NCBI RefSeq assembly: GCF_028416635.1
Contig: NZ_CP114013.1
Coordinates: forward strand, 248,001 to 312,000
Source of the DNA: Baekduia alba
GTDB lineage: Bacteria > Actinomycetota > Thermoleophilia > Solirubrobacterales > Solirubrobacteraceae
Length of the DNA stretch: 64,000 nucleotides
Reading direction: 5' to 3'
Position numbers and translations under genes: made by a program. Shown piece by piece: positions 1,407 through 29,796 of this stretch (position 1 is its first letter; each line of letters starts with the position of its first letter). The notes beneath the pieces are model-generated. The model was not told the DNA's origin, made no database searches, and worked only from the letters and a program-made list of their open reading frames with translations.

Positions 1407-3410
1407 TCAGGCTGCGCGCGACTGCGCGGTCGCCGCCGCAAGCACGTAGTCGCAGATGCGCTCGGTCGCCTGGCGCAGGCGGCGGAAGTAGGTCGCGCGC
1501 GAGACGTGCAAGGTAAAGGCGACGTCTTCGTGGGCGGCGGTGCGGTTGGCGTAGGCCGCGAAGGCGACCTCGCGCAGGAGCGTCTCGTCCGGGCCGGCGC
1601 CGAAGGACTCGGTCATCGCGCGGAGCAGCAGCGCCCGGACCGCGTCGCCGCCGCGCCCGGCGATCACCGTCAGCGGGCTGGCCGCCAGCTCGGTCGGCCG
1701 GTCCAAGTCGCGCAGCGCCTGGCGTATGTCGTCCTCGCCGATCGCCGGCGCGACGAGCGACACAATCTGATTGGGTCGGTCGTCGGGACGCGGCAGGCCG
1801 AGCTCGGTGTAGATCGTCGCGCGCAGGCCGCCGAGGACGCCGCCGGGGCCGTGGTCGATCACGTAGCACTCGTGGACGTGCTCGCCGACCTGCACGTCGA
1901 GGCCGTCGATCCGGCGCCCGCCCGCCTGCTCCATGAACGCGACCGACGCCGTGTTGACCGGGCTGATCGGGATGTAGAAGCAGCGCGGGTTCGGCAGCCC
2001 CGAGCGCAGGATCGTGCCCGTGTTGATGACCGCGAGCACGCGCGACGCGAGGTCGCCCTGCTCGTCGGCGGTGAGGTCCAGCGCGTCGCGCCAGATCAAG
2101 GCATTGCCCTTGGGGACGTGCTGGGCCGCGTGCTTGATCCAGCGCCCGACGTAAGGGTCGGCGAGCAGCGCGGGCGACGCGCCCGCGGGCGTCCCCGCGA
2201 TCGCCAGCCCGCAGAGGGCATCGTGATGGTCGCGCGCGACGACGAAGTGCTCGGGTGCCGCGGCGGCCAGCGCGCGGGTGGCCGCCCACCACTCCCCGCT
2301 CGCCCGTGCCAGCATGTGCTCGGGCGGCGCCTCGAGCTCCCCGGGTCGCAGCTCGTCGGGACGCAGCACGCGCGCCGCGTCGGCTCCGAAGCCCCAGCGC
2401 AGCGCCGGGTCCTCGATCAGCTCGGCGAGGTCGATGACCAGCCGCGGGTCGTCGGCGACGGCATGGTGGTGGAGATGGTCGGCGATCCGGCGGCGCAGCT
2501 CGCGCTCGCGCTCCGGGCGCTGGGCGCGCAGCTGTGCCCGGAGCGCCTTGCGGACCAGGTCGTGCATGGCGACGCCGTCGCCGACCGGCTCGGCGATCGA
2601 CTGCGCCCGCAGCCACGCCTGGGCCTCGTTGGGCGGGATGCCCGGCAGGACCTCGGCCAGCAGTGAGGCGGTCGTCACGCGCGCGATGGCGGCGACCGCG
2701 GTGACGTCGTCGTGGCGGTCGGGCGAGTCCGGCCGGGCCAGGACGAGGCGGCTGACGAGCAGGTCGACGAGCTGCGGGTCGGACCCGAGGTGGTCGTCGG
2801 GCCAGCGGCCCTCGCGTTGGGCGATCGCGGAGGCGAGGCTGAGCGCCAGCGGCGAGCCGCTCGACCACTGCACGAGCGCGGAGGCGGTCGCGGCGTCGTC
2901 GATCCCGTGGGCCGCGACGAACTGCAGGCCCTCGGCGACGGTGAGCGGCGCGAGCGCCAGCGCGCGCGTCAGGTGCTCCCAGCCGTCCTGGAACCACTCC
3001 GGCGCCGGGCGCTCACGTCCGGCGAGCACGACGATCGCCCGTGCCGGCAGCGCCGGCAGCAGCCGCTCACGCAGCGCCCCGTCCAGCGCCGAGATCTGCT
3101 CGTAGGTGTCGAGCAGCAGCACCGGGCGCTCCTCGGCCTGGGCAGCGACGAGGATCGCTTCCAGCGCGCCGGGCGCCGGCGGGAGCTCGCGCCCGTCGAT
3201 GCGCCAGGGGGACCAGCCCGCGGCGACGCCGAGGCGCCCGACCTGGCGCAGCAGCGCGCTCTTGCCGATGCCGCCGGGGCCGTGGACGTGCACGACGCTG
3301 ACCGGCGGATCGTCGACGAACAGGCCCTCGAACACCGCCAGCTCGGCCGTGCGACCCACGAACCGCTCCACCTCACGTGCGCGGAGCCGATCCGCAAGCG
3401 TCCCCGCCAT
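1407..3410 (-). CDS. STAND-like AAA ATPase with C-terminal HTH
   Basis: The product has 667 residues. A P-loop GPGGIGKS lies at about residues 44-51, followed by a Walker B-like strand ending in LLLDTYEQ at about 96-104. The N-terminal VGRTAELAVFEGL block is typical of MalT/AfsR-like signal-transduction ATPases, and ALALAPLTVAEG and AMHDLVRKAL fit the winged-helix part of such modules. The long middle has no recognised domain. The C-terminus (LHVSRATYFRRLRQATERI) looks like a helix-turn-helix, suggesting an ATP-dependent transcriptional regulator in the cytoplasm. The gene is intact although it lies in the decayed region, and starts at ATG 3,410. It is transcribed in the same direction as nothing immediately adjacent, so a partner cannot be inferred. 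Other STAND regulator subclasses remain possible. Confidence 0.7.
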   Translation of the reverse strand: MAGTLADRLRAREVERFVGRTAELAVFEGLFVDDPPVSVVHVHGPGGIGKSALLRQVGRLGVAAGWSPWRIDGRELPPAPGALEAILVAAQAEERPVLLLDTYEQISALDGALRERLLPALPARAIVVLAGRERPAPEWFQDGWEHLTRALALAPLTVAEGLQFVAAHGIDDAATASALVQWSSGSPLALSLASAIAQREGRWPDDHLGSDPQLVDLLVSRLVLARPDSPDRHDDVTAVAAIARVTTASLLAEVLPGIPPNEAQAWLRAQSIAEPVGDGVAMHDLVRKALRAQLRAQRPERERELRRRIADHLHHHAVADDPRLVIDLAELIEDPALRWGFGADAARVLRPDELRPGELEAPPEHMLARASGEWWAATRALAAAAPEHFVVARDHHDALCGLAIAGTPAGASPALLADPYVGRWIKHAAQHVPKGNALIWRDALDLTADEQGDLASRVLAVINTGTILRSGLPNPRCFYIPISPVNTASVAFMEQAGGRRIDGLDVQVGEHVHECYVIDHGPGGVLGGLRATIYTELGLPRPDDRPNQIVSLVAPAIGEDDIRQALRDLDRPTELAASPLTVIAGRGGDAVRALLLRAMTESFGAGPDETLLREVAFAAYANRTAAHEDVAFTLHVSRATYFRRLRQATERICDYVLAAATAQSRAA

Positions 3411-8296: not shown

Positions 8297-8660
8297 CTAA
8301 GCCGCACCCTCGGCGCCTTGCGCCACGCCCGCGCGGCGGCCGCCGCGGAGCCGGACGCGACCCCGCAGTCGCGCTGATGACGCGATGGGGGCCGTTCTAG
8401 CGCTTGCGAGAGAACACGGGCTCCCGCTCAGCATGGGCGGTCGTGCGGAGGGCGCCCGAATTCCCGGTAATCCCCAGAACCAGTCACATATCTCGGAATA
8501 AAGGCACTGGTGCCTGAAACGGAGCGGGAACTCGGGCCGGTTCAGGGCCAGCCCTGAACGACGAAACCCCCGCGGTAGCAGGGGTTCCGTGACGATGGAG
8601 CTAGGGGGACTCGAACCCCCGACCTCCTGGGTGCGATGCAAGAAGCCTGCGCCGCAGAAG
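8297..8660. repeat. tRNA-Ala 3'-end repeat, copy B (att scar)
   Basis: The core at 8,595-8,637 is identical over 43 bases to the intact tRNA-Ala(CGC) 3' end at 29,723-29,765. Beside it is a hairpin of the C5/G5 type (about 8,565-8,588), then an element-specific flank with the motif ACATATCTCGGAATAAAGG and an inverted AGGCAC/GTGCCT pair. Homology to copy D extends a further ~140 bp, from about 8,297 (start GCCGCACCCTCGGCGCC), so B and D share a longer unit than A and C. Open reading frames here that begin ELGGLEPPTSWVR are translations of tRNA sequence and are not genes. Confidence 0.75.
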
Positions 8661-12978: not shown

Positions 12979-13188
12979 GTCGGTTGAGGGTCCCATGCAT
13001 CGGATCCCGGGCGCCGAATCGCGAGGAATCCCCGGGGAACAAGTCGCATATCGTGGAAGCGCTGGCAACACGCACCTTGAGCAGGACCCGGACGCCGCAG
13101 CTCGGCAGCGCTCTACCAACGCCGCGTCGGTCTTCTGCTCCCACTCGTTGAACAGCAGGTTCTTGACCTTTATCTCCGGGTGTCTCCG

Positions 13189-14109
13189 TCAACAGCGGCT
13201 ATCCGCGTCCAGGTGACCGCTGAGCCACGTCTCGATGTCTTCGAGCGCGACCCGCGCCATCGGTGTCGGATGGGCGGTGAACCCGTGGGGCGAGCCGGGG
13301 TAGATGCGCAGATCGACGTCGACGTCGGCTGCTGACAGTCGCGCGGCGATGGCCAGGTTGTCCTCAAGCAGGATGTCGTCCGCTCCGACGATTATGAGGA
13401 CCGGCGGCAGGTCTGTGAGCTCGGCGTAGATCGGGGAGAGGTCCGGGTCGGTGCGGTCCGATGCTGCGCCCGCGTAGGCGTCGAGGAAGTACTCGTCGGC
13501 GATCAGGCGTCCGGCCGGTGTCTGGGCGCTGAGGTCGTAGGTTCCGAACTGCAATACCGCAGAGCCGAATGCGATCCCCCGATCGCGCAGACGCAGAAGC
13601 GTGGTCATCGCCAGCGTTGCGCCGGCTGAGAAGCCGCCGACGGCGAGCTTGGTCGTGCCGAAGCGTTGCTCGGCGTGCTCGGCGAGCCAGAGCGCTGCCG
13701 TTTCGCAGTCATCGGGTGCGGCCGGCCATGGGTGTTCGGGAGCGAGTCGGTAGTCCACGCTGGCGACCGCGATGCCGAGTGCGTCCGCGAGCTGCCGGTT
13801 GCGGACGTCGCTGGCGGTAGCCGACCCCATGTAGAAGCCGCCGCCGTGGATCTCCAAGTAGACGCCCGTCGCCGCCCTGTCTGCGGGGATGTGGATCCGC
13901 AGAGGGACGCGGCGGCCGGCGATGCCGACGAGCTCGTTGACAGCCGGCGGGTTCGACGGGGCGGCGGCGGCCATGCTGGCTCGGACCGAGCGAAGCTCCT
14001 CCCAGCTGCTTGGGCCCCGACCGGCCACGCGCTTCGCATAGAACGCGCGCGATCCGTCGACCAGAGCAACCAGGCGAGGATCGATCAGATGGGCCAATCC
14101 GAATCGCAT
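13189..14109 (-). CDS. Alpha/beta hydrolase, HSL-family esterase
   Basis: The gene starts at ATG 14,109 and encodes 306 residues, the usual length of bacterial hormone-sensitive-lipase-like esterases. The oxyanion motif HGGGFYMGS, the VDYRLAPEHPWPAAPDD block, the nucleophile elbow GFSAG, the acid region VGADDILLEDN and the catalytic His in GSPHGFT are all present and in order. The complete triad implies an active cytoplasmic carboxylesterase on short acyl esters. It is intact, unlike most neighbours, so it may be recent cargo. It follows a composite small gene by 13 bases in the same direction. Confidence 0.85.
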   Translation of the reverse strand: MRFGLAHLIDPRLVALVDGSRAFYAKRVAGRGPSSWEELRSVRASMAAAAPSNPPAVNELVGIAGRRVPLRIHIPADRAATGVYLEIHGGGFYMGSATASDVRNRQLADALGIAVASVDYRLAPEHPWPAAPDDCETAALWLAEHAEQRFGTTKLAVGGFSAGATLAMTTLLRLRDRGIAFGSAVLQFGTYDLSAQTPAGRLIADEYFLDAYAGAASDRTDPDLSPIYAELTDLPPVLIIVGADDILLEDNLAIAARLSAADVDVDLRIYPGSPHGFTAHPTPMARVALEDIETWLSGHLDADSRC

Positions 14110-14122
14110 CGAGATCGGAGCT

Positions 14123-14521
14123 CTAGCCTTCGTCGCGCAGCGTCTGGTTCTCGGCGCGCAGGCGGCGGTTGTCGGCCAGCAGCGTCTCGTTGCCCTGGCG
14201 CAGCGAGCGCTCGCGAGCGCGCTGCTCGTCGGGCACTCTCGCCACCGCGCTCGGTTGGCGGTCTCGGATTTGTTCGATGCCGGCACGCAGCTCGGGTTGG
14301 GTGTAGAGCCGTTGCCGCGAGACCCGCCCGTCGCGCGACGGCTTGAAAGGTGACCGCCAGCCCGTCGGCTCGAGAAGGAAGGCGAGCTTCTCCAACCGCG
14401 TGATGCCATTGCAGCGGTCCTGGAGCTCGGCGCTGCTCGCTGGCGCGCCGAGGATCAGCAGAACGAGGTCGTTGGAGTCGAGGACGTCGGGGCCCGGCGA
14501 CGGGGAGCGGGTGTCGCTCAT
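14123..14521 (-). CDS. Composite small protein with DUF6262/TnpC-like C-terminus
   Basis: The 132-residue frame from ATG 14,521 looks like two pieces joined. The first ~50 residues (DSNDLVLLILGAPASSAELQDR... TRLEKLAFLLE) resemble the start of a small hypothetical protein of phage/island type. The rest (SRQRLYTQPELRAGIEQIRDRQ, then a coiled coil LLADNRRLRAENQTLRDEG) matches the pattern of DUF6262 proteins. These accompany paired tyrosine recombinases in Tn554-like elements. The recombinase genes themselves are absent, so this is likely a transposition relic. The join is visible as a change of character around GWRSPFKPSRDGR. Confidence 0.45.
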   Translation of the reverse strand: MSDTRSPSPGPDVLDSNDLVLLILGAPASSAELQDRCNGITRLEKLAFLLEPTGWRSPFKPSRDGRVSRQRLYTQPELRAGIEQIRDRQPSAVARVPDEQRARERSLRQGNETLLADNRRLRAENQTLRDEG

Positions 14522-17733: not shown

Positions 17734-19041
17734 ATGCACATCCGTAGGTTGATGAGGCGGTCGTTGGGGCGGGAATTCGGCTGGCTGTGGGCAGCCTACG
17801 CGGCGAGCGCCTACGGCTCCGGCCTGGCGCTCGGCGCGTTCCCGCTGGTCGCGGTGCTGGCGCTGCACGCCGGCGCGGCCGAGGTCTCCGTACTGTCCGC
17901 CGTGGGACCGGCGGTGGGCGCCCTGGTCGCGGTGCCGCTCGCGCCGTGGGTTGAGTTTCATCGCAAGCGGCCGGTGATGATCGCAATGGACCTAGCTCGC
18001 TTCTTGGTCCTAGCGACGATCCCCGTCGCCTACGCCCTTGGCTGGCTCAGCTTCGTCCAACTGCTCATCGTCTCCGCGGTGGTCGCCGCGACGAAGATCG
18101 CGTTCAACGCGGCCAGCGGCGCCTACCTCAAGACGCTCGTGCGGCCAGATGACCTGCTGGTCGCGAACGCGCGGTTTGAGTCCACGAACTGGAGTTCACT
18201 TGCGGTCGGTCCGCCGATGGGCGGGGCCGCGGTGGGCTTGTTCGGGCCGGTCGCGACGGTCGTGGCCGACGCGCTCAGCTACCTGCTCTCAGCGCTGGGC
18301 ATTACCGCGATCCGCGGGCACGAGCAAGTCCCGGAGCGAGCCGTAAAGGGACGGTGGCGGGCCGCTGATCTCGTTGACGGCTGGCGGCACATCCTGACCG
18401 ATCCCGTCCTGCGGGCGCTGTGGTTCAACAACATGCTCGTCAGCGGACTAATTATGGCTACGGAGCCGTTGCTGGCCGTGCTGTTGTTGCGCCAGCTCGG
18501 CTTCCCGCCTTGGCAGTACGGGCTCGCGTTCGCGGCGCCCTGCGTCGGCGGGTTGATCGGCTCTCGCCTCGCCCGCCGGGTCGTGGCCCGCTACGGCCAG
18601 CACCGCGTCTTTCGGATCGTCGGCACCCTGCGTGCCGTGTGGCTGATCGGCCTGGCGTTCATCCGCCCCGGTGTCATCGGCCTACTGACGGTGATCGCGG
18701 TCGAGCTGGCGATCATCATCAGCATGAGCCTGTACACCCCGGTACTGGCGACCTACCGGCTCCAGCACACCCCGAAGGACCGCATCGCCCGCGTGCTGTC
18801 GGCCTGGTCAATCGGCTCGCAGGCATCAATCGCGATCTTCACCGCGCTCGGCGGGCTGCTCGCCGCCCTCGCCAGCACCCGCACCGCGCTCGCCACCGCC
18901 GGCCTGCTCATCCTCACCAGCCCGCTGCTCCTACCCCGCCGCGAGTGCCCCGCGCCCGAAGCCGACCGGGAACCGGCCACGGCCGACCTGAGCTCTAGGC
19001 AACCAGCGACAACCACTGCACTGGCACCAGCACAGCCATGA
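17734..19041 (+). CDS. MFS transporter
   Basis: 435 residues with about 10-12 hydrophobic segments (AYAASAYGSGLALGAFPLVAVLAL, VSVLSAVGPAVGALVAVPLA, and so on). The loop EFHRKRPVMIAMDLARF matches the cytoplasmic loop 2-3 signature of MFS drug-efflux permeases of the MFS_3 (enterobactin/macrolide exporter) type. The second half begins at about residue 215 with VLRALWFNNMLVSGLIM. A second ATG at 17,752 (MRRSLGREFGW) is also plausible. The C-terminal 40 residues are hydrophilic. The substrate is unknown; efflux of a small molecule sensed by the divergent LysR protein is the obvious inference. Confidence 0.85.
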   Translation: MHIRRLMRRSLGREFGWLWAAYAASAYGSGLALGAFPLVAVLALHAGAAEVSVLSAVGPAVGALVAVPLAPWVEFHRKRPVMIAMDLARFLVLATIPVAYALGWLSFVQLLIVSAVVAATKIAFNAASGAYLKTLVRPDDLLVANARFESTNWSSLAVGPPMGGAAVGLFGPVATVVADALSYLLSALGITAIRGHEQVPERAVKGRWRAADLVDGWRHILTDPVLRALWFNNMLVSGLIMATEPLLAVLLLRQLGFPPWQYGLAFAAPCVGGLIGSRLARRVVARYGQHRVFRIVGTLRAVWLIGLAFIRPGVIGLLTVIAVELAIIISMSLYTPVLATYRLQHTPKDRIARVLSAWSIGSQASIAIFTALGGLLAALASTRTALATAGLLILTSPLLLPRRECPAPEADREPATADLSSRQPATTTALAPAQP

Positions 19042-19081: not shown

Positions 19082-19562
19082 TAAGCCGCACCCTCGGCGC
19101 CTGCGCCATGCCCGCGCGGCGCTCGCCGCGGAGCCGGACGCGACCACGCAGTCGCGCTGATGACGCGATGGGGCCGCTCTACCGCTCGCGAGAGAACACG
19201 GGTTTCCGCTCAGCGTGGCGGCCGTACGCAGAGCGCCCGAATTCCCGGCGAACCAGTCACATATCTCGGAATAAAGGCACTGGTGCCTGACACCGAGCGG
19301 AACTCGGGGCAATTCACGGCCATCCCCTAAACGACGAAACCCCCGCTCACGCAGGGGCTTCATCCAACATGGAGCTAGGGGGACTCGAACCCCCGACCTC
19401 CTGGGTGCGATGCAAGAAGCCTGCGCGGCAGAAGGTCCCGTTTTGCAGGGGCTTCCAAGGTGCTCCGCAGGCGGCGTGCTGGCGCGGATTGCCGAGGATT
19501 ACCAGCGATTCCGGGGGTTCCAGGCACTGCGGATCCCAGTGCCTGAAGGGGCCAGTGCCTGG
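19082..19562. repeat. tRNA-Ala 3'-end repeat, copy D (att scar)
   Basis: The core at 19,369-19,411 is identical over 43 bases to the intact tRNA 3' end. The left flank (from 19,082) matches copy B for nearly 300 bp with scattered changes and small indels. The right flank (to about 19,562) matches copy C, including the GGCACTG/CAGTGCC dyads. D is therefore a link between the B-type left arm and the C-type right arm. It is the scar nearest the integrase and marks the probable left end of the youngest block. Confidence 0.75.
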
Positions 19563-19949
19563 CGCGGTCCGCGATCGTGCTCGCTTCGCCTTTTCTCGGG
19601 TGCCGCAAGAGGTCCGCTCAGGGCAGGCCGAGGGTGGCGGTCTTGTTCGGCTCTCACCCCGTAGAGCTTCAACTCGTCAACCCAGCCGCGGAGAAGGGCA
19701 CAGTGCAGGCAGTGCGCGCGGCCGATCATCAGGCTGGGAGGTCGGCCGGACAAGACACCCATGCATGAGACACCGTGCACGTCGCGATCAAGCCGGAACC
19801 CTCAACGCTCTCGCTGCGCCTGCGGCTGACCGCGGGCGGGAAGGCAATGGTCCAGCCGGTCGAGATCGCGCGCGGCTGAAGGGGCGGGCGGGAACGTCAG
19901 GGCCGCCGCGACCTACGTCTCGGCAACCACGGAAAGCTGCACGGACTCC

Positions 19950-20280
19950 GGACGCGACGGTAGCGACCACCCGCGTGCTGCTGCCGACGTCCTTGCGGTC
20001 GTGACGGAGATCTGCGCCCGCCACGAAGCGGTACGCCTCGCGCGTGCGCCCGAGGTGGCCGCCGCCTGGCACCCGCGCCCATCGAGGCGCTGCACGACGA
20101 TCCGCCGCTGAGCATCGCCGAGCTCAACGCAGTCCGCGTCCTCATCGCGGCATGACCGGCGCCGTCGCCGCGGCGCGCCGAGCTCACGCCCACGAACTCC
20201 AGCGGCGCGCGAGCACCTCGGCCCTGGCGGCGGTCGCAGAGGACCCGGAGCGCCTGGTAGGCGCGGTCATAGGTTCGTGA
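19950..20280 (+). pseudogene. Small gene remnants
   Basis: Frame text VLAVVTEICARHEAVRLARAPEVAAAW continues after a one-base shift as IEALHDDPPLSIAELNAVRVLIAA with TGA at 20,153. An ATG overlapping that stop (20,152) opens a 42-residue frame ending GAVIGS at 20,280. This looks like the end of one island gene coupled to a short second one. Both are degraded or very short. No family is recognised. Confidence 0.3.
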
Positions 20281-20574
20281 TGCCCGCGGCGATCATCGAC
20301 GCGGCCTGCCTCGCGGCCCCGGGCTCATCCAGGTCGGGTGGCGTGTCGTAGGTCCAGATGTCATACCGCTCCGTGAGCGGCGTCCCGTCGGCCAGGATGA
20401 GTTCGGCGACGATCTCGGCCGCGTCGTTCGCGCGGTGGAGCGTGAACGAGCGGAGGTGCCGGCCGTGGCCCTCCATCTCGCCGCGCAGGGGCGTGCCGTC
20501 GGCGAGGATCGCGCGGGTCGCGCGGAGGCACTCGTCCTCGAACGCGGCGCGGCGGGCGGCGTCGTCAGTTGCGC

Positions 20575-20578
<4 letters not shown>
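20267..20578 (-). CDS. Hypothetical protein, 103 residues
   Basis: GTG 20,578 overlaps the TGA of the upstream broken gene (GTGA overlap), so it was translationally coupled to it. The product begins MSATDDAARRAAFEDECLRATRAIL, with strands HLRSFTLHRANDAAEIVAELILADG and a TYDTPPDL loop. It is a coherent small alpha/beta protein without signal or membrane segments and of unknown function. Its stop overlaps the end of a plus-strand remnant. Confidence 0.5.
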
Positions 20579-22299
<1,721 letters not shown>

Positions 22300-22748
22300 G
22301 GGAACCGCCTCCTTAGCGTGCAGACCATCTAAACGGTCCGTCGTGGATCAGTCAACGAGCCTGTCTGATCGTGGCTCAAGACACTAGGGCAACAACTGCG
22401 CCACCCACCCGGCACAGCCGGGGCGCGTGACCCGCGGCGGGCTCAGCTCGGCACGGGCGGCGTCGGATGTCGGCGTCAGCCTTCGTGAGTTAACCGCGCA
22501 TGTGGAAGAAAGCGGGCAGAAGTGGGCAGTTCGAGGCTCGGGCCAAAGGGGCGTCGTAATTCGGCGTTATCACGCGTTACGCGGCGAGCGTCGCCGCGTT
22601 GGAATCTCGAAGGGCGCCCGCGCTGCTTCAGGCCGCCGATGTGATCTACGGTCAACGACTCAGAACTGCGCCGCAGGCACGGGTCGGCCAGGCGACCGAC
22701 GTCCACGTCATCCTCATCGGCCGAGGACTCGTGGACGAAGCGCGGATC
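22300..22748. other. Region upstream of the large NTPase gene
   Basis: This gap between the divergent broken secreted-protein gene and the NTPase holds no convincing gene. It is less GC-rich at 22,320-22,400 and may contain promoters for both. The NTPase frame is open from TTG 22,599, and the segment 22,660-22,748 could belong to it if translation starts earlier. Confidence 0.35.
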
Positions 22749-25700
22749 ATGGACTGGGAGCGAGGCTGGGTGCCGCCCGACGGTGCGTTGTTGCTGGTTG
22801 ACGACGCTTGGTTGGCGGAGGCGGAGTGGCAGCGATACGGCGGTCTGGGTGTGGTGACGCTCCAGGAGGTTCGCGAAATCCCAGCTCTGGTGCTTTTGGG
22901 GGAACCGGGGTCAGGCAAGTCGGAGTGCCTGCGTCGTGAACGTGATGCTGTCGAAGCAACCACGGCGAACGGTGAGGAGACGCTGCTCGTCGATCTCGGA
23001 CTCGCGATGGACGCGCGTGATCTGCACGATCGGGTCTTCGGCGACCCGAAGTTCCTGGCGTGGCGCAACGGCGCGACTCGGCTGCATCTCTTCCTCGATT
23101 CGCTGGACGAGGCGAAGATCCAGGTTCGCAAGGTGGTGTCGATGCTCCAGGAGGCCCTCGAGCGCTGTGACCTCGATCGTCTCGTCCTGCGCGTCGCGTG
23201 CCGGACGGCGGATCGGCCGACTGGCTTCGAGACCTGGCTCAAGGATGCATTCGGCGAGGAGCGGTTCCGTGTTCTCGAGCTGGCACCTCTGCGGGTTTCA
23301 GAGACAAGGGCGATGGCGAGTGCGCGAGGGGTCGACGACGATCGGTTTGTACAGGCTGCGGTTACGGCAGGTGTGGCACCGCTGACCGCGCGGCCGCTGT
23401 CGTTGAAGATGGTGCTGGGTGTTTTCGAGGCCGAAGGCGGGTTCCCGGACACGCTTGGGGCGCTGTATCAGGACGCGCTGCTGTTGATGGTGGGCGAGGA
23501 CCAGGATGAGCGGCGGCCGTTGCGGACGTTGTCCGACACGGCGGGCTTCGCCATCGCGGCGCGGATCGCGGCCGCGACGGTGCTCGCCGGCCGGGACGTC
23601 GTCGGTGACGGAGTCGATGCCGTTGCGCTCCGCGACCTCGCGGGCGGCGATGAGCTCGACCGCCTCGTCGCGGCGGAAACTACCGTCGCGGTCGACGAGC
23701 GCGCGGTCCAGGAAGTGCTCGGCACCGCCCTGTTTACCGGTCGGGCGGGCGGCGTGGGATGGGCGCACCGGACGTTCGGTGAGTACCTTGCCGCCTACTG
23801 GTTGGCGGGGGACCGGCTCACGGACGCCCAGGTCGCAGACCTGATGCTCGTCGATGACGGGACGTTGGCGGTGGCGCCGCCGCTGCGCAACGTCGCGGGG
23901 TGGCTGCTCGGAATGCGCCCGACGTTCCAAGCGCTTCTCACGCCGGCCGACGCGCTCGTGTTGGTCTACGGGGATCCGGCCTCTGTCGCGGTCGAGGTCC
24001 GTCGCGCACTGCTGCCGTCGTTGCTGGACGCGCTCGACGATCAGCAGGTGGACCGACGCGGGTTGCGCAACCTCTGGCGGTGGGTCGGCTACGACGGCAT
24101 CGCCGATGACCTGCGAGCCACGCTGCTCGACCTAGGCCGTGACGATCAGACGCGGCAAGCGGCGGTCGACGCAGCCGCGGAGTTGGAGCTTGACGACCTA
24201 GTTGGCGTGCTTGTCGATGTCGCACTGGACCCGGCTAACTCCGTGTCGTTGCGAACCTCTGCGCTCTACGGACTGCGGGAGTTCGGCGACCGTGTCCCCC
24301 GCGAGCGGATCCGGCCGCTGGCCCTGCAACCCCAGCCCGGGGATGACGACGACGAGATCAAGGGCGCGGCGCTTCACCTCTGCTGGCCGAAGGCGATCAG
24401 CGCGCCGGAGCTCTTCGCCGCCTTGACGCCGGAGAAGAACGAGGCCTTGCTTGGTGCCTACGTCGGATTCCTGCACGGGCCGTGCGTCGAGCACCTCACC
24501 GAGCCAGAGGATCTCCTGCTCGGCATCCAGTGGGGGCTCACGGTAAGTCACCGGGCGCACGACACCCGCGACGTGACCGGCGTCGCCGACCGGATCGTCG
24601 CCAAGGCCTGGCCACTCGCGGCGACCGTCCCCGACATCGCCGAGGCGCTCACCGACCTGATCGAGCTGGCCTCGGCCAGCTTCAGCCCGATCCTGAGAAG
24701 CCCGCGCTCACTTCGCGACGACGCACCAGACAGCACCCTCGACGATCCGCAGGCCAACGCCGCGATCGCGGCAGTGCTGGTCGAGCGCATGGCGGCCGGG
24801 ACGCAGGCCGGGGACGTGGTGGAGCGGATGGTCTTTCGCGACTTCCCGCGTGAGATCGACATGAGCGTGGTGATCGAGCGGTGGGCTGCCGCGCCGTCGG
24901 GTGCGGTGAAGGCCGCGTGGGTGACATGCATCCCGTGGTTGGCTCGTGGTGATCGTGCCGACGCGATCTACGAGGTCAGGGACACGTATCCCGAGTTGTA
25001 TGAGTTGGTGGCCTGGCGCTACGAGGCGATCGTCCTCGACAGCCCCGAGGCAGAGGCCCTACGCCAACAGCACGCACATCTACTGGACGACAACCGGCCC
25101 TCCAGTCCCCCATCGGCGGATCTCGAGGAGCTCGATCGCCACATCGCAGCTGAGCTGGCCGCCTTCGCCAACGGGAACGTCGACGCGTTCTGGCGCCTGC
25201 CTCGCCAGCTCTTCGTCGACGATGACAACTGGGTGCGCGACGAGCAAACCCGCGAAGACCTGGCCGACACCCCCGGGTGGCGCCGGATGAGCAACGAGAC
25301 GCGCAGCAAGCTGATCGACGCCGCGCGCGAGTACCTGCTGCGTGCTGATCCCGAGACCGCCAGTTGGCTCGGCCAGGATGTCTTCTTCCGCCCGGCTCGC
25401 GCGGGATACCTCGCACTCAAGTTGTTGTTCAACGAACGCCGGACATCCTTCGACAGCCTCGACGCGTCGGTTTGGCGAAGATGGGCCCCGGTGGTCATCG
25501 AGCCGCGACGCTACGGCTCCGAGAACGATCGGGATGCTTTCCACACGGTCGCCCTCGCTTGCGTGCGTGCCGACGCAGCTGACGTTGCTCGCGACGTCAC
25601 GCGCGCCCTCATTCCCGGACGCTTGTTCGCCAGCGACATCGACGCGGCCCGGGACCGCCTCGGTGAGCTCTGGGACACGTCGTTCGATGACCTGCTGTTC

Positions 25701-26915
25701 GCGCAGCTCGACCGTAGTGATCTCGAACGTCACGAGATCTACAACGTCGTCTCAGCCCTCCTGGCGGTCGACTACGCGGACGCTGAGGACTGGGCCGCAA
25801 GCCGCATCACGTCGGCGCAGCTGGTGGGTGACGAAGACCAGCGAGAGCTGGCACTCGACCTCGCCGGCGCGCTGGCCGCGCACGCTCCGAGGCGGCTCTG
25901 GCCGATGGTCGAGTCGATCGTCGGCAACGATGACGTCGCGGGTCGCATCTTGTTGTCGCGGTTGATCGATCGGTCTGAGTCCGGCTGGGAAGGGGCACTT
26001 GAGCCGGCAGAGCTTGCTCGCCTTTTCGGGCTCTTGAGGCGATTGTTCCCACCCGATCCCGATGCGCCCGACGGGCGGACGTTCGCGGTCACGATTGAGA
26101 TGCAGGCGTCGTTCTGGCAGAGCCGGATCGTTGAGCGGCTCGTCGCCGAGGGGACTCGCGACGCCGTCTCCGTCGTTGCCGCGCTCGCGGCCAAGCACGA
26201 CGACAACGGTTGGCTTCGGCGCATGTACCATCGGGCGCGGGAGGAGCTGCGCCGTGCGGTCTGGGCGCCGCCGTCGCCAGACGCGGTGGTCCGCCTAGGC
26301 GGCGTCGACAGTCGGCGGCACGTCGCCGACGCACCCGCCCTGCGGCGTATCGTCATGGGCGCGCTGGTCGAGATTGCTGCCCAGATGCGCGGCGCGCGGC
26401 CGCTCGCGCCGGCGCTGTGGAACACCAAGCCATATCGCCTTCCCAAAGACGAGAACGAGATCAGCAACATGCTGGTCGAGTGGCTGAGCGCGCGGATCGG
26501 TGACGACAAGGCCATCATCAACCGCGAGGTTCAGGTCAACCCCCGGAGCGGGCAGTCCGCCGATCGCACCGACATCCTCGTGCAGGCCACCGCCGCCGGC
26601 CAGGGCACGTTGAGCGTCGTCGTTGAGGTCAAGGGCGCATGGAACGTCGACGTCATGACCGCACTCGGCAATCAGCTGGCCGGGAAGTATCTGAAGCCAG
26701 ACCTGACCGATCAAGGCATATACCTCGTGTTTTGGTTCGCCGAAGAGGGGTGGGACGACTTCGGCAGCGAGAGCGAGCGCAACCGCCGGCGCCGCACAAC
26801 CCGCGAGACCGCGCCGCGGATGGCAGAGCTCCTCGAGGCGCAGGCTCACGATGTCTCCATGGCGCTCGACGTGACGGTCGACGCGTTTGTCATCGACGCC
26901 TCGCTGGGCCGCTGA
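22749..26915 (+). CDS. NACHT/STAND-like NTPase with C-terminal PD-(D/E)XK-like nuclease
   Basis: I start at ATG 22,749 (1,388 residues; MDWERGWVPPDGALLLVDDAWLAE). TTG 22,599 is an alternative adding 50 residues. Walker A GEPGSGKS is at 51-58 and Walker B LHLFLDSLDEA at 112-122, with the Asp-x-x-Asp-Glu spacing of NACHT NTPases. The phrase WAHRTFGEYLAAYWLAG at about 350 is the hallmark of the winged-helix end of NACHT modules. About 850 residues of Leu/Ala/Asp-rich helices, probably alpha-solenoid sensor repeats, follow. Near the C-terminus DENEISNMLVEWL (Glu about 1235), DRTDILV (Asp about 1275) and SVVVEVKGAW (E1293-x-K1295) form a PD-(D/E)XK nuclease signature. No signal or membrane segment is seen. 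It probably acts as a sensor-triggered nuclease, a defence-type role that is inferred. It lies between an att scar and the integrase. Confidence 0.75.
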   Translation: MDWERGWVPPDGALLLVDDAWLAEAEWQRYGGLGVVTLQEVREIPALVLLGEPGSGKSECLRRERDAVEATTANGEETLLVDLGLAMDARDLHDRVFGDPKFLAWRNGATRLHLFLDSLDEAKIQVRKVVSMLQEALERCDLDRLVLRVACRTADRPTGFETWLKDAFGEERFRVLELAPLRVSETRAMASARGVDDDRFVQAAVTAGVAPLTARPLSLKMVLGVFEAEGGFPDTLGALYQDALLLMVGEDQDERRPLRTLSDTAGFAIAARIAAATVLAGRDVVGDGVDAVALRDLAGGDELDRLVAAETTVAVDERAVQEVLGTALFTGRAGGVGWAHRTFGEYLAAYWLAGDRLTDAQVADLMLVDDGTLAVAPPLRNVAGWLLGMRPTFQALLTPADALVLVYGDPASVAVEVRRALLPSLLDALDDQQVDRRGLRNLWRWVGYDGIADDLRATLLDLGRDDQTRQAAVDAAAELELDDLVGVLVDVALDPANSVSLRTSALYGLREFGDRVPRERIRPLALQPQPGDDDDEIKGAALHLCWPKAISAPELFAALTPEKNEALLGAYVGFLHGPCVEHLTEPEDLLLGIQWGLTVSHRAHDTRDVTGVADRIVAKAWPLAATVPDIAEALTDLIELASASFSPILRSPRSLRDDAPDSTLDDPQANAAIAAVLVERMAAGTQAGDVVERMVFRDFPREIDMSVVIERWAAAPSGAVKAAWVTCIPWLARGDRADAIYEVRDTYPELYELVAWRYEAIVLDSPEAEALRQQHAHLLDDNRPSSPPSADLEELDRHIAAELAAFANGNVDAFWRLPRQLFVDDDNWVRDEQTREDLADTPGWRRMSNETRSKLIDAAREYLLRADPETASWLGQDVFFRPARAGYLALKLLFNERRTSFDSLDASVWRRWAPVVIEPRRYGSENDRDAFHTVALACVRADAADVARDVTRALIPGRLFASDIDAARDRLGELWDTSFDDLLFAQLDRSDLERHEIYNVVSALLAVDYADAEDWAASRITSAQLVGDEDQRELALDLAGALAAHAPRRLWPMVESIVGNDDVAGRILLSRLIDRSESGWEGALEPAELARLFGLLRRLFPPDPDAPDGRTFAVTIEMQASFWQSRIVERLVAEGTRDAVSVVAALAAKHDDNGWLRRMYHRAREELRRAVWAPPSPDAVVRLGGVDSRRHVADAPALRRIVMGALVEIAAQMRGARPLAPALWNTKPYRLPKDENEISNMLVEWLSARIGDDKAIINREVQVNPRSGQSADRTDILVQATAAGQGTLSVVVEVKGAWNVDVMTALGNQLAGKYLKPDLTDQGIYLVFWFAEEGWDDFGSESERNRRRRTTRETAPRMAELLEAQAHDVSMALDVTVDAFVIDASLGR

Positions 26916-26978
26916 ACGTGGTCGTCGGTATCAGCCCTGCGGCCGGCTCACCGGGTAGTTCCGCTGGTCTGAGCGCTG

Positions 26979-28148
26979 TTACGCGGCTCGCGCGCGGCTC
27001 ACGTGCTGGAGGGCCAGGCCGCGAGGCTGAGGCCCGAACAGCGCCTCGAACTCCTGGCACCATTGGTTGTGCGCTACGGCCTCGTTGCGGTCGTGGGCCT
27101 CGTGGCCGAATCGGTGGTGGCCAGGCCGACGGCCGAAGGTGTCCATCGCTTCCGTGCGACCTCCGGTGTAGGCCATCGAGATCTCGGCGCCCGGGTGAAG
27201 AGAGCGCGGGTCCGGCATCAGCAGATGATGGTCTCCGGCCGTGCGCCAGCTGAACTTGATACGGCGCTCCGGGTGCAACCACTCCTCCCGGCCTGCCGCG
27301 ATGAACCGGTAGGCCCGCTTCTTGACGATGCAGTTGATCGTCAGCACTTCCGCCTCGGTAAGCGAGCGGCGTACCTGCAGCTCGGTGAAGTCGAACATCG
27401 CCCCACGGAAGAACTCGGGGTTCGGTCTCAGCTCCAGCGGCGGCCGATGTGGGTTGCAGGCCCACAGCATGTTGGTGAGGATCAGCACGCGCTCGGCGGA
27501 GAGCGGGAACAACGTGTGGGTCGCCTGTAACCGGATGTCGGGGTCGTTCACGCCCTTGCACCACGGATGCCCCGGCGCGCACGCGCGGTTGTACACGGTG
27601 ACTGGATGGTCCGAGATGATGAACTTGGTTGGTGAATGCGAGGCGTCGGCGACCTGCCACGCGCACTCGGACCAGATCGCCCCGTAGACGGTGCGTAACG
27701 TCTCGAGGTGATCGAGGACGTGGCTCCGGTCCTGCGCGCCGCTGGTCGCGACAAGCCAGTCGAGTCCCTTTGGCGTCCGCAGCTTCTGGGTGCTCATGTA
27801 CACCATCATGTGCTCGAGCGCGCGCTCTTCGAGGCGGTCGTGGTCGTAGGTGGCGAAGAACTCGACGGCCTTCTTACCCTGTAGATCCACTTCGCCGAAG
27901 AAGACCTGCTCCAGCTCGCGGGACTCGACGCCCTCGAACCGCGTCGTGTAGAGGTCGTCGATCGCGAAGCACTTGCGAGTGCCGATCCTGCGCATCGCCT
28001 TGCGGCGGCGCTTGACGCCGTCAGGCGTCCGAAACGAGTCCGGCTTGAGGTCGAGCAGGAACAGCTCCCGGTCGACCTGGCCTGAGGGTATGAACCGCTT
28101 CTGATACCACTGCGGCACGTAGTGGTTGTTCGTGTACTCCGTCGACAC
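26979..28148 (-). CDS. DUF4238 domain protein
   Basis: The 389-residue product begins MSTEYTNNHYVPQWYQKRFIP, the conserved opening of DUF4238 proteins (NHYVPxxYL+xF). It continues with the family's FAIDDLYT, EFFATYDHDRLEERALEHMMVYMSTQKLRTPKG and FIISDHPVTVYNR, followed by VLILTN. The molecular function of DUF4238 is not known to me. It converges on the NTPase gene with a 63-base gap and lies between it and the integrase, so it travels with that block. A co-function with the NTPase is possible, but the opposite orientation does not require it. Confidence 0.8.
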   Translation of the reverse strand: MSTEYTNNHYVPQWYQKRFIPSGQVDRELFLLDLKPDSFRTPDGVKRRRKAMRRIGTRKCFAIDDLYTTRFEGVESRELEQVFFGEVDLQGKKAVEFFATYDHDRLEERALEHMMVYMSTQKLRTPKGLDWLVATSGAQDRSHVLDHLETLRTVYGAIWSECAWQVADASHSPTKFIISDHPVTVYNRACAPGHPWCKGVNDPDIRLQATHTLFPLSAERVLILTNMLWACNPHRPPLELRPNPEFFRGAMFDFTELQVRRSLTEAEVLTINCIVKKRAYRFIAAGREEWLHPERRIKFSWRTAGDHHLLMPDPRSLHPGAEISMAYTGGRTEAMDTFGRRPGHHRFGHEAHDRNEAVAHNQWCQEFEALFGPQPRGLALQHVSRARAA

Positions 28149-28352
28149 TGGGCCGAACGGTAGCCGGGGATCCGGCGGCGCCTAGGGCGAGCGGCGAGCG
28201 CGCGGTGGCGCTCGAGGAGTAGCACGGGCCTTAATAGCGCTGGGGGAGCCTGCGGGATCTCTCCGGCCGGTCCCGGCGCGGCGCAACGTCGGGCGCCCAC
28301 CGCTTCCGCGGCATCTTCGAGGTGGTCAACCATCGAGGGCGAGGGGCGTGGC

Positions 28353-29636
28353 ATGTCTGCCGATGCGGGAGCGAAGTCTGGGCGTCGCCGGGTCGAGCGC
28401 GGAATCTACGAGCAACCCAATGGCAAGTACTTGGTGTGCATCATGGTCGATGGCCGACCACGCTTTCGCGTCGTCGGCGTCGACCTGGAGGAGGCGCGGC
28501 GTCAACGCGGGGAGCTGATCGAGGCCGCGCGGCGAGGTGAGGTGCCTGTCGCGCCGAACCTGCGGTTGGACTCGGTGGTCGAGCAGTGGCTGAGTCGCTA
28601 TGAGACGCTCGTAGCTGGTGGGCTACGTCGGTCGCGCACGCTGGAGGCGCATCGCTACTACCTTGACCGCCACCTGCTCCCGCGCCTGGGTCGTCGCCGG
28701 ATCTCGGCGATCACCGTCTCTGACGTCTGCGCGGTGATCGACGGCATGCGCGCCGGCGGCTGCTCGGAGAAGACGATCGGCAACGCGTTGGCCACGCTGC
28801 ACAGCGTGCTGCGCTACGCCCGGCGTCAGGGTTGGGTCGTCGATGATCCGATCGCCAAGCTTGAGGCCGACGAGCGGCCGCGTCCGGAACCTCGGCGTCA
28901 GCGCGTGCTCGGACAGCAGGAGGTCGTCCGGCTGTTGGCCTGCACGAGCGACGCCTACCGGCCGTTGGTCGCGACGGCGTTGTTCACCGGGATGCGGATC
29001 TCGGAGTTGCTGGGCCTGATCTGGGGGGACGTCGACCTGCGTGCGGGGACCATCCACGTCCGCGCTCAGCTGTCGCGAGCCCATCGCGGCGTGCCGTCGG
29101 TGCGCGTCGCGCCCAAGACCCGCGCCGCGATGCGTGAGATCCCGCTTGTGCCCCAACTCGCTCAGCTGCTCCGTATCCACCGCGCGCTCGCACCGGCCGC
29201 GGCCGCCGCCGATTGGGTCTTTCCCTCGCAGACCGGCACGCCGCTGGGGCATCGCAACGCCCAGTACCGCGCGCTGGCGCGAGCGGCCAAGAAGGCCGGG
29301 CTGGAGGACGGCGACTGGCCACCGCTGCGCTTCCACGATCTGCGCCACACCTTCGCCAGCCACCTGATCATCGACCTCGGCCTCGACGTCGCCCAGGTCA
29401 GCCGCATCCTCGGCCACGCGCAGATCACCACCACCCTGAGCGTCTACACCCACCTCTTCGACGACGCCCGCCACGCCCAGGACCTCAAGGCCAGGATGGC
29501 CGCCAGCGCCTTCGCCGCGCTCCTCGAACCCGGCGCCGACCGAGAGTCGGAGGGCACGGTCGTAGCGTTCCCCAAGCGCCCCGGCGGCCGGCGATCCTCG
29601 GCGCGTGAGCGCGCGGCGGCGCGGTGGGCTACTTGA
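28353..29636 (+). CDS. Tyrosine integrase of the tRNA-Ala(CGC) element
   Basis: 427 residues in normal order: an N-terminal arm-binding part (YEQPNGKYLVCIMVDGRPRF), a SAM-like core-binding domain (EQWLSRYETLVAGG... TIGNALATLHSVLRYARRQGW), and a catalytic domain with all key residues. These are Arg in FTGMRISELLGL (about 215), HDLRHTF (about 328-333), GHAQITTT and the nucleophile Tyr in SVYTHLF (about 365). It looks fully active. It ends 87 bases before the 3' end of the intact tRNA-Ala(CGC) gene, which is the expected attachment site, and a terminator-like hairpin lies in between. It presumably catalyses insertion and excision at copies of the tRNA 3' end. Confidence 0.93.
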   Translation: MSADAGAKSGRRRVERGIYEQPNGKYLVCIMVDGRPRFRVVGVDLEEARRQRGELIEAARRGEVPVAPNLRLDSVVEQWLSRYETLVAGGLRRSRTLEAHRYYLDRHLLPRLGRRRISAITVSDVCAVIDGMRAGGCSEKTIGNALATLHSVLRYARRQGWVVDDPIAKLEADERPRPEPRRQRVLGQQEVVRLLACTSDAYRPLVATALFTGMRISELLGLIWGDVDLRAGTIHVRAQLSRAHRGVPSVRVAPKTRAAMREIPLVPQLAQLLRIHRALAPAAAAADWVFPSQTGTPLGHRNAQYRALARAAKKAGLEDGDWPPLRFHDLRHTFASHLIIDLGLDVAQVSRILGHAQITTTLSVYTHLFDDARHAQDLKARMAASAFAALLEPGADRESEGTVVAFPKRPGGRRSSARERAAARWAT

Positions 29637-29689
29637 CCAGAACTTGACCGACCGCGAAAGACGCCAGCGAGCAGACCGTCCGTAGAACG

Positions 29690-29720
29690 CGAAAACCCGC
29701 CGAAATGCAGCGGGTTTTCG
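29690..29720. terminator. 11-bp stem-loop with A/T flanks after tRNA-Ala(CGC)
   Basis: CGAAAACCCGC and GCGGGTTTTCG pair perfectly over 11 bp with a 9-base loop. It is placed 4 bases beyond the 3' end of the minus-strand tRNA, and its T-run suits tRNA termination. It could also stop the convergent integrase transcript. Related hairpins sit at the same place next to all four att scars. Confidence 0.75.
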
Positions 29721-29723
29721 TGA

Positions 29724-29796
29724 TGGAGCTAGGGGGACTCGAACCCCCGACCTCCTGGGTGCGATCCAGGCGCTCTCCCAACTGAGCTATAGCCCC
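29724..29796 (-). tRNA. tRNA-Ala (anticodon CGC)
   Basis: Read on the minus strand, the 73 bases fold into a full cloverleaf: acceptor GGGGCTA/TAGCTCC with discriminator A, D-arm GCTC/GAGC, anticodon stem CCTGG/CCAGG around loop ATCGCAC (anticodon CGC, reading codon GCG), T-arm GGGGG/CCCCC with loop TTCGAGT. CCA is not encoded. The 3' 43 bases are repeated as att scars at four places to the left. It is the intact copy, regenerated at the right end of the island series. Confidence 0.95.

Follow-up and report, generated by a model that had tools for sequence, protein, structure and literature searches.

Does a large protein encoded in the Baekduia alba genome carry its effector at the opposite end from that expected of bacterial NLR-like defence proteins, and what would such a protein do? 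The question arises within a 64,000-nucleotide stretch of this genome (the window), from the letters of which a sequence-only reading had proposed a candidate defence gene encoding a NACHT-type NTPase, a long helical middle and a C-terminal nuclease. Counted from the ATG at 22749, the protein has 1,388 residues. A TTG at 22599 is an alternative start that adds 50 residues (the 1,438-residue frame), and matches to the family profile begin at the ATG rather than at this TTG. Pfam returned only sub-threshold AAA matches to the 1,388-residue protein, PADLOC no family at E up to 1, PHROGs nothing significant, and sequence comparison with solved structures no significant match. Among these collections NCBIfam alone matches the protein, through the models EruA (NF058535, NACHT domain-containing antiphage protein; 3e-80, 270.8 bits) and HyoA (NF058534; 2e-45, 154.9 bits). 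The features discussed below are collected in the table.

Table. Features of the gene and its element, in positions of the window, and the C-terminal tails of relatives (L numbers)
Feature	Location	Strand	Basis or remark
NACHT-HEAT-PD-(D/E)XK protein, distant EruA homologue	22749..26915	+	ORF, NCBIfam match, profile start
NACHT nucleotide-binding domain, residues 30-240	22836..23468	+	Walker A 22899-22922, Walker B 23088-23111
NACHT helical and winged-helix part, residues 241-400	23469..23948	+	WAHRTFGEYLAA at 23760-23795
HEAT/ARM-like solenoid, residues 401-1115, proposed sensor	23949..26093	+	
Helical linker, residues 1116-1234	26094..26450	+	tail exchange in relatives falls here
C-terminal PD-(D/E)XK nuclease domain, residues 1235-1388, proposed effector	26451..26915	+	ExK at 26625-26633
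DUF4238 protein, passenger of element	26979..28148	-	Pfam 1.7e-15
Tyrosine integrase, intact	28353..29636	+	Pfam 1.4e-28; PHROG integrase 7e-70
tRNA-Ala(CGC), integration target	29724..29796	-	
Integrative element, 10.4 kb	19369..29765	.	direct repeats 19369-19411 and 29723-29765
CHAT protease tail	L055, L110		
GT4-conflict glycosyltransferase tail	L036		5e-114
AAA and metallophosphatase tail	L104:12415-15237		
EAD2 tail	L107, L112		L107: E 1.5e-4, just below Pfam cut-off; L112: same tail by eye
Hydrophobic, apparently transmembrane segment as tail	L056, L062, L077		
EAD-like tail	L064, L066, L067		by eye only
Second NACHT domain as tail	L111:14155-15480		9.7e-6, just below Pfam cut-off

The Walker A motif (GEPGSGKS, residues 51-58), the Walker B motif (LFLDSLDE, residues 114-121) and WAHRTFGEYLAA (residues 338-349) are conserved throughout the family. 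The protein thus has the features characteristic of NACHT/NLR-related STAND proteins: Walker A, a DxxDE-type Walker B, a helical and a winged-helix part, and a conserved histidine. Modelled from 59 aligned sequences, residues 1-1172 (mean pLDDT 86, pTM 0.78) form a P-loop domain, then a winged-helix region and then a long helical solenoid. At the top of the Foldseek list for this model stand bovine NLRP9 and many HEAT-repeat proteins, including importins and CAND1. When a second-look aligner was used, NLRC4, NLRP7, NLRP2, NOD2 and NLRP3 led, with Z from 16.9 to 12 over approximately residues 1-460, and ARM-repeat proteins matched approximately residues 400-750. The NACHT-type motifs of the sequence-only reading are therefore borne out by family conservation and by the NLR structures that lead the fold list. 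Its helical middle is likewise present, as a HEAT/ARM-like solenoid, and occupies about 700 residues (approximately 400-1115) rather than the 850 or so first proposed. In the model the P-loop domain starts by residue ~30-47 with nothing ahead of the NACHT module, and an N-terminal effector is absent.

At the other end of the protein, residues 1117-1388, modelled from 49 sequences (pLDDT 91, pTM 0.72), show a helical linker followed by the alpha-beta-beta-beta-alpha-beta topology of PD-(D/E)XK nucleases, with E1260, D1275, E1293 and K1295 (E...D...ExK) positioned as the core of this fold requires. The E-D-E-K tetrad is near-exceptionless among nuclease-tailed members on the profile alignment and invariant in all 49 nuclease-tailed rows when these are aligned on their own; because of this invariance, the signature lies far beyond chance. 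Run alone, Foldseek returned no hit of significance for the nuclease model (best E 0.015). After its 1000 top chains had been re-aligned by the second-look aligner, the best matches were BamHI (Z 9.2), Can2 (8.7), McrC (7.5), EcoT38I (7.5) and PaqCI (7.4), and PD-(D/E)XK nucleases made up the majority of the list. This aligner often gives middling Z values, and the claim of a PD-(D/E)XK fold therefore needs the invariant motif as well as Z. The nuclease assignment rests on motif, modelled topology and second-look alignment together. Structure prediction, the check proposed with the sequence-only reading, thus yields both an NTPase (NACHT) fold and a nuclease fold, and the C-terminal nuclease that had been read from its motif alone holds.

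We looked for relatives in one genome per species, using an alignment of five members as the query, and found 143, of which 80 were kept. A single-sequence query had found no relative in a first scan of contigs; the phage collection contained no relative, and none could be confirmed in viral contigs with such a query. The relatives come from Actinomycetota, Cyanobacteriota, Bacillota, Bacteroidota, Acidobacteriota, Pseudomonadota, Chloroflexota, Myxococcota and other phyla, and one is from an ANME-2 archaeal assembly. The patterns used for selection sit within the Walker motifs, so the tail had no influence on which candidates were selected.

Across these relatives, tails other than the nuclease occur on a NACHT-HEAT part that is kept (table). 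A tree was built with FastTree from the NACHT-HEAT part only; it contains several long branches that leave its deep joins unsure. On it, the label of nuclease or other tail changes at least eight times with truncated rows excluded, and well-supported branches force at least six changes when truncated rows count as non-nuclease. The exchange is also seen in two cyanobacterial relatives, L048 with a nuclease and L064 with a tail that is EAD-like by eye only; they share ~81% identity over NACHT-HEAT, whereas their sequences beyond the linker are unrelated. In most, although not all, close pairs of nuclease-tailed members the solenoid is less conserved than the NACHT and nuclease domains (in L050 and L051, 81% identity for NACHT, 59-64% for HEAT and 77% for the nuclease), as expected for a sensor under changing selection. 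One relative, L037, has an NTP_transf_2 nucleotidyltransferase domain (4.2e-12) in frame after its nuclease tail, at 13143-13772.

Because no enzymatic effector is recognisable except at the C-terminus, and that one is exchanged in relatives, we interpret the tail as the effector and the solenoid as the sensor; the tail exchange, including that between L048 and L064, argues for this assignment. With some reserve, we also favour the wider reading that these proteins form a broad class of NLR-like receptors that reaches across many phyla of bacteria and into at least one archaeal assembly. In this class a constant receptor would be joined to a C-terminal cassette (a nuclease, a CHAT protease, a glycosyltransferase, a metallophosphatase, an adaptor domain or a membrane segment), the mirror image of the rule that effectors are N-terminal.

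The gene lies on an integrative element that is bordered by a 43-bp perfect repeat of the 3' end of tRNA-Ala(CGC) and contains, besides the 1,388-residue gene, the DUF4238 gene on the minus strand, the tyrosine integrase and one further minus-strand gene. The integrase adjoins the tRNA, and at the far border the tRNA 3' end is repeated, as in integrative elements that target tRNA genes. The DUF4238 gene and the intact integrase at a tRNA, both noted in the sequence-only reading, are confirmed by Pfam and by the tRNA-Ala(CGC) gene; the integrase linkage that it described stands, and it had missed the left border at 19369 and the tRNA-end repeats further left. These repeats, of 42-44 bp, are found at 8594, 14900, 19369 and 29723, with a degenerate copy at 1180-1228, and their 42-bp core, with up to two mismatches allowed, has six copies in the 5.86-Mb genome, four of them in the window. 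The array suggests several insertions stacked at one tRNA. Apart from the integrase of the rightmost segment, no PF00589 domain was found within the array.

Several other features of this region were noted. The two further repeat copies lie at 5461514 and 5465716 of the genome, the latter next to another integrase. The leftmost array segment encodes an AAA_16 or STAND-like ATPase at 1410-3410 on the minus strand (AAA_16 1.6e-5, below the cut-off), and the segments also hold an alpha/beta hydrolase and an MFS transporter, at 13192-14409 (-) and 17734-19041 (+). The open frame changes across a 39-bp poly-G run at 21052-21090, in a minus-strand gene with proline runs; the poly-G run may represent phase variation or an artefact of sequencing. 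DUF4238 was considered as an obligate partner of the NACHT-HEAT protein and rejected, being present in only 8 of the 30 genomes with a relative.

PD-(D/E)XK nucleases can be toxic, and this one is carried by an integrative element with its own integrase, as might a toxin-like addiction or stabilisation gene whose nuclease harms the cell upon loss of, or damage to, the element. However, no antitoxin-like partner was seen beside the gene and DUF4238 is not a fixed one, a 1,388-residue switch with a varying solenoid is unlike known addiction modules, and the architecture is retained across phyla in unrelated contexts. We consider such a role very improbable.

The surroundings of the relatives were compared with control regions. 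At a threshold of 1e-10, 235 PADLOC families were matched beside 24 relatives as against 34 in regions from the same genome set, these being counts of distinct families rather than of proteins, in which one protein can match many models; the enrichment of defence genes near relatives is suggestive. Pfam domains near relatives include integrases, TnsD/TniQ, relaxase and reverse transcriptase, whereas the controls contain mostly metabolic genes, and integrases, TnsD/TniQ, reverse transcriptases and type I restriction genes are commoner beside relatives than in matched controls. For the window itself, the description of a typical defence-island setting is only weakly true, as none of the three main genes of the element matches a PADLOC model and the DUF4238 gene is an inconstant companion.

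Within the phylum the distribution is patchy, with a member in 8 of 396 genomes including that of Baekduia alba, and no relative was found in the other genomes of the genus that were searched. Large ATPase-nuclease proteins occur in DNA repair, so that a housekeeping regulator or a DNA-maintenance ATPase-nuclease might be envisaged, but we find this hardly credible in view of the patchy occurrence, the mobile contexts and the exchanged tails. Several relatives reside on conjugative or mobilizable plasmids, where they lie near TIR, SIR2, AbiEi and reverse-transcriptase genes and another NACHT gene. These plasmid locations, together with the position of the window copy within a tandem tRNA-Ala insertion array, could point to a self-contained system that defends against plasmids or other mobile elements rather than phage, in which the protein would sense and cut incoming or competing DNA and guard the tRNA site or the host. 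We regard this as unlikely, as NCBI names both EruA and HyoA antiphage and the CHAT, GT4 and metallophosphatase tails are ill-suited to a purely DNA-directed role.

We therefore think it likely that the protein acts by itself as an NLR-like antiphage receptor, with its effector at the C-terminus, and that it is a distant relative of EruA; the defence function first proposed from the sequence is supported and plausible. Sequence comparison and models establish the domains, the invariant catalytic residues, the fixed receptor with exchangeable tails, the location on a mobile element and a distant homology with EruA; by analogy we infer that the protein senses a ligand and oligomerises, that its target is DNA and that phage is the trigger. 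In the mechanism that we propose, the NACHT module would be a nucleotide-dependent switch and the HEAT-like solenoid would recognise a phage molecule or a phage-altered host molecule. Recognition would lead to ATP binding and oligomerisation, which would cluster the C-terminal PD-(D/E)XK domains and turn on DNA cleavage, such that the phage DNA would be destroyed or the infected cell would die before phage release. The gene itself would move on the integrase-driven element at tRNA-Ala.

EruA already shares the reversed architecture, and it is the family-wide exchange of C-terminal tails that deserves follow-up. If the tail is the effector, the family would be a large exception to the effector-first, sensor-last rule for bacterial NLR-like proteins, and natural exchanges such as that between L048 and L064 would be ready-made chimeras in which one receptor drives different weapons. 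EruA-type defence would also widen to a widespread modular family that was missed by PADLOC-DB 2.0.0 in the Baekduia alba genome.

How does this protein compare with known systems? Avs proteins similarly combine a STAND NTPase with a long helical part, and EfAvs5 appears in the fold list of our model (Z 10.6), but Avs effectors are usually N-terminal and the 1,388-residue protein matches no PADLOC model. The rule for bNACHT and other STAND proteins is an N-terminal effector, a central NACHT and a C-terminal sensor (PMC12169576), whereas here the nuclease occupies residues 1235-1388 and there is no N-terminal domain. bNACHT25 and bNACHT32, clade 6 bacterial NLR-related proteins in which defence needs nuclease activity (PMC12169576), also join a NACHT switch to a PD-(D/E)XK nuclease, but their nuclease is at the N-terminal end and sensing falls to the C-terminus, which is the opposite order. 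The reversal with respect to Avs and bNACHT that the sequence-only reading described is thus real.

Two further systems bear on the exchanged tails. DS-8 from DefensePredictor consists of a NACHT protein with a metallophosphatase, both required for defence (PMC13092281), and the relative L104 resembles it in domain content, joining NACHT-HEAT to a metallophosphatase. In the accessible text of an eLife 2021 study (PMC8195603), GT4 domains are frequently C-terminal on NACHT and other STAND conflict proteins, as predictions only, and the GT4-conflict tail of L036 is placed likewise; that text describes GT4 tails rather than the NACHT-HEAT family as a whole.

HyoA has the NACHT-to-solenoid region in common with the 1,388-residue protein, but the match is weaker, does not reach the cut-off of 1200 bits and has its best stretch at residues 219-610 of the 1,438-residue frame only. 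A literature search for antiphage EruA or HyoA found no fitting paper, so that the antiphage role cited here is that of NCBI's naming; the name 'EruA' does appear in the title of one paper, which deals with a regulator of E. coli that is unrelated. A search of E. coli genomes for EruA-like DNA with the Pseudomonas gene gave no match. The homology to EruA extends from end to end, with residues 89-1435 of the 1,438-residue frame covering positions 19-1318 of the 1318 in the model, and both proteins consist of a NACHT, a long middle and a C-terminal E-D-E-K nuclease. Sequence identity is nevertheless low, and at 271 bits against an equivalog cut-off of 1000 the Baekduia protein is not EruA in NCBI's sense. 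The relative L114, from Pseudomonas guguanensis, exceeds that cut-off (1182 bits), also matches HyoA over its residues 133-1320, and bears the same C-terminal nuclease tail. Because of this tail the reversed order is EruA's own, and the suggestion that the architecture might be undescribed gives way to a curated family with a member of identical order.
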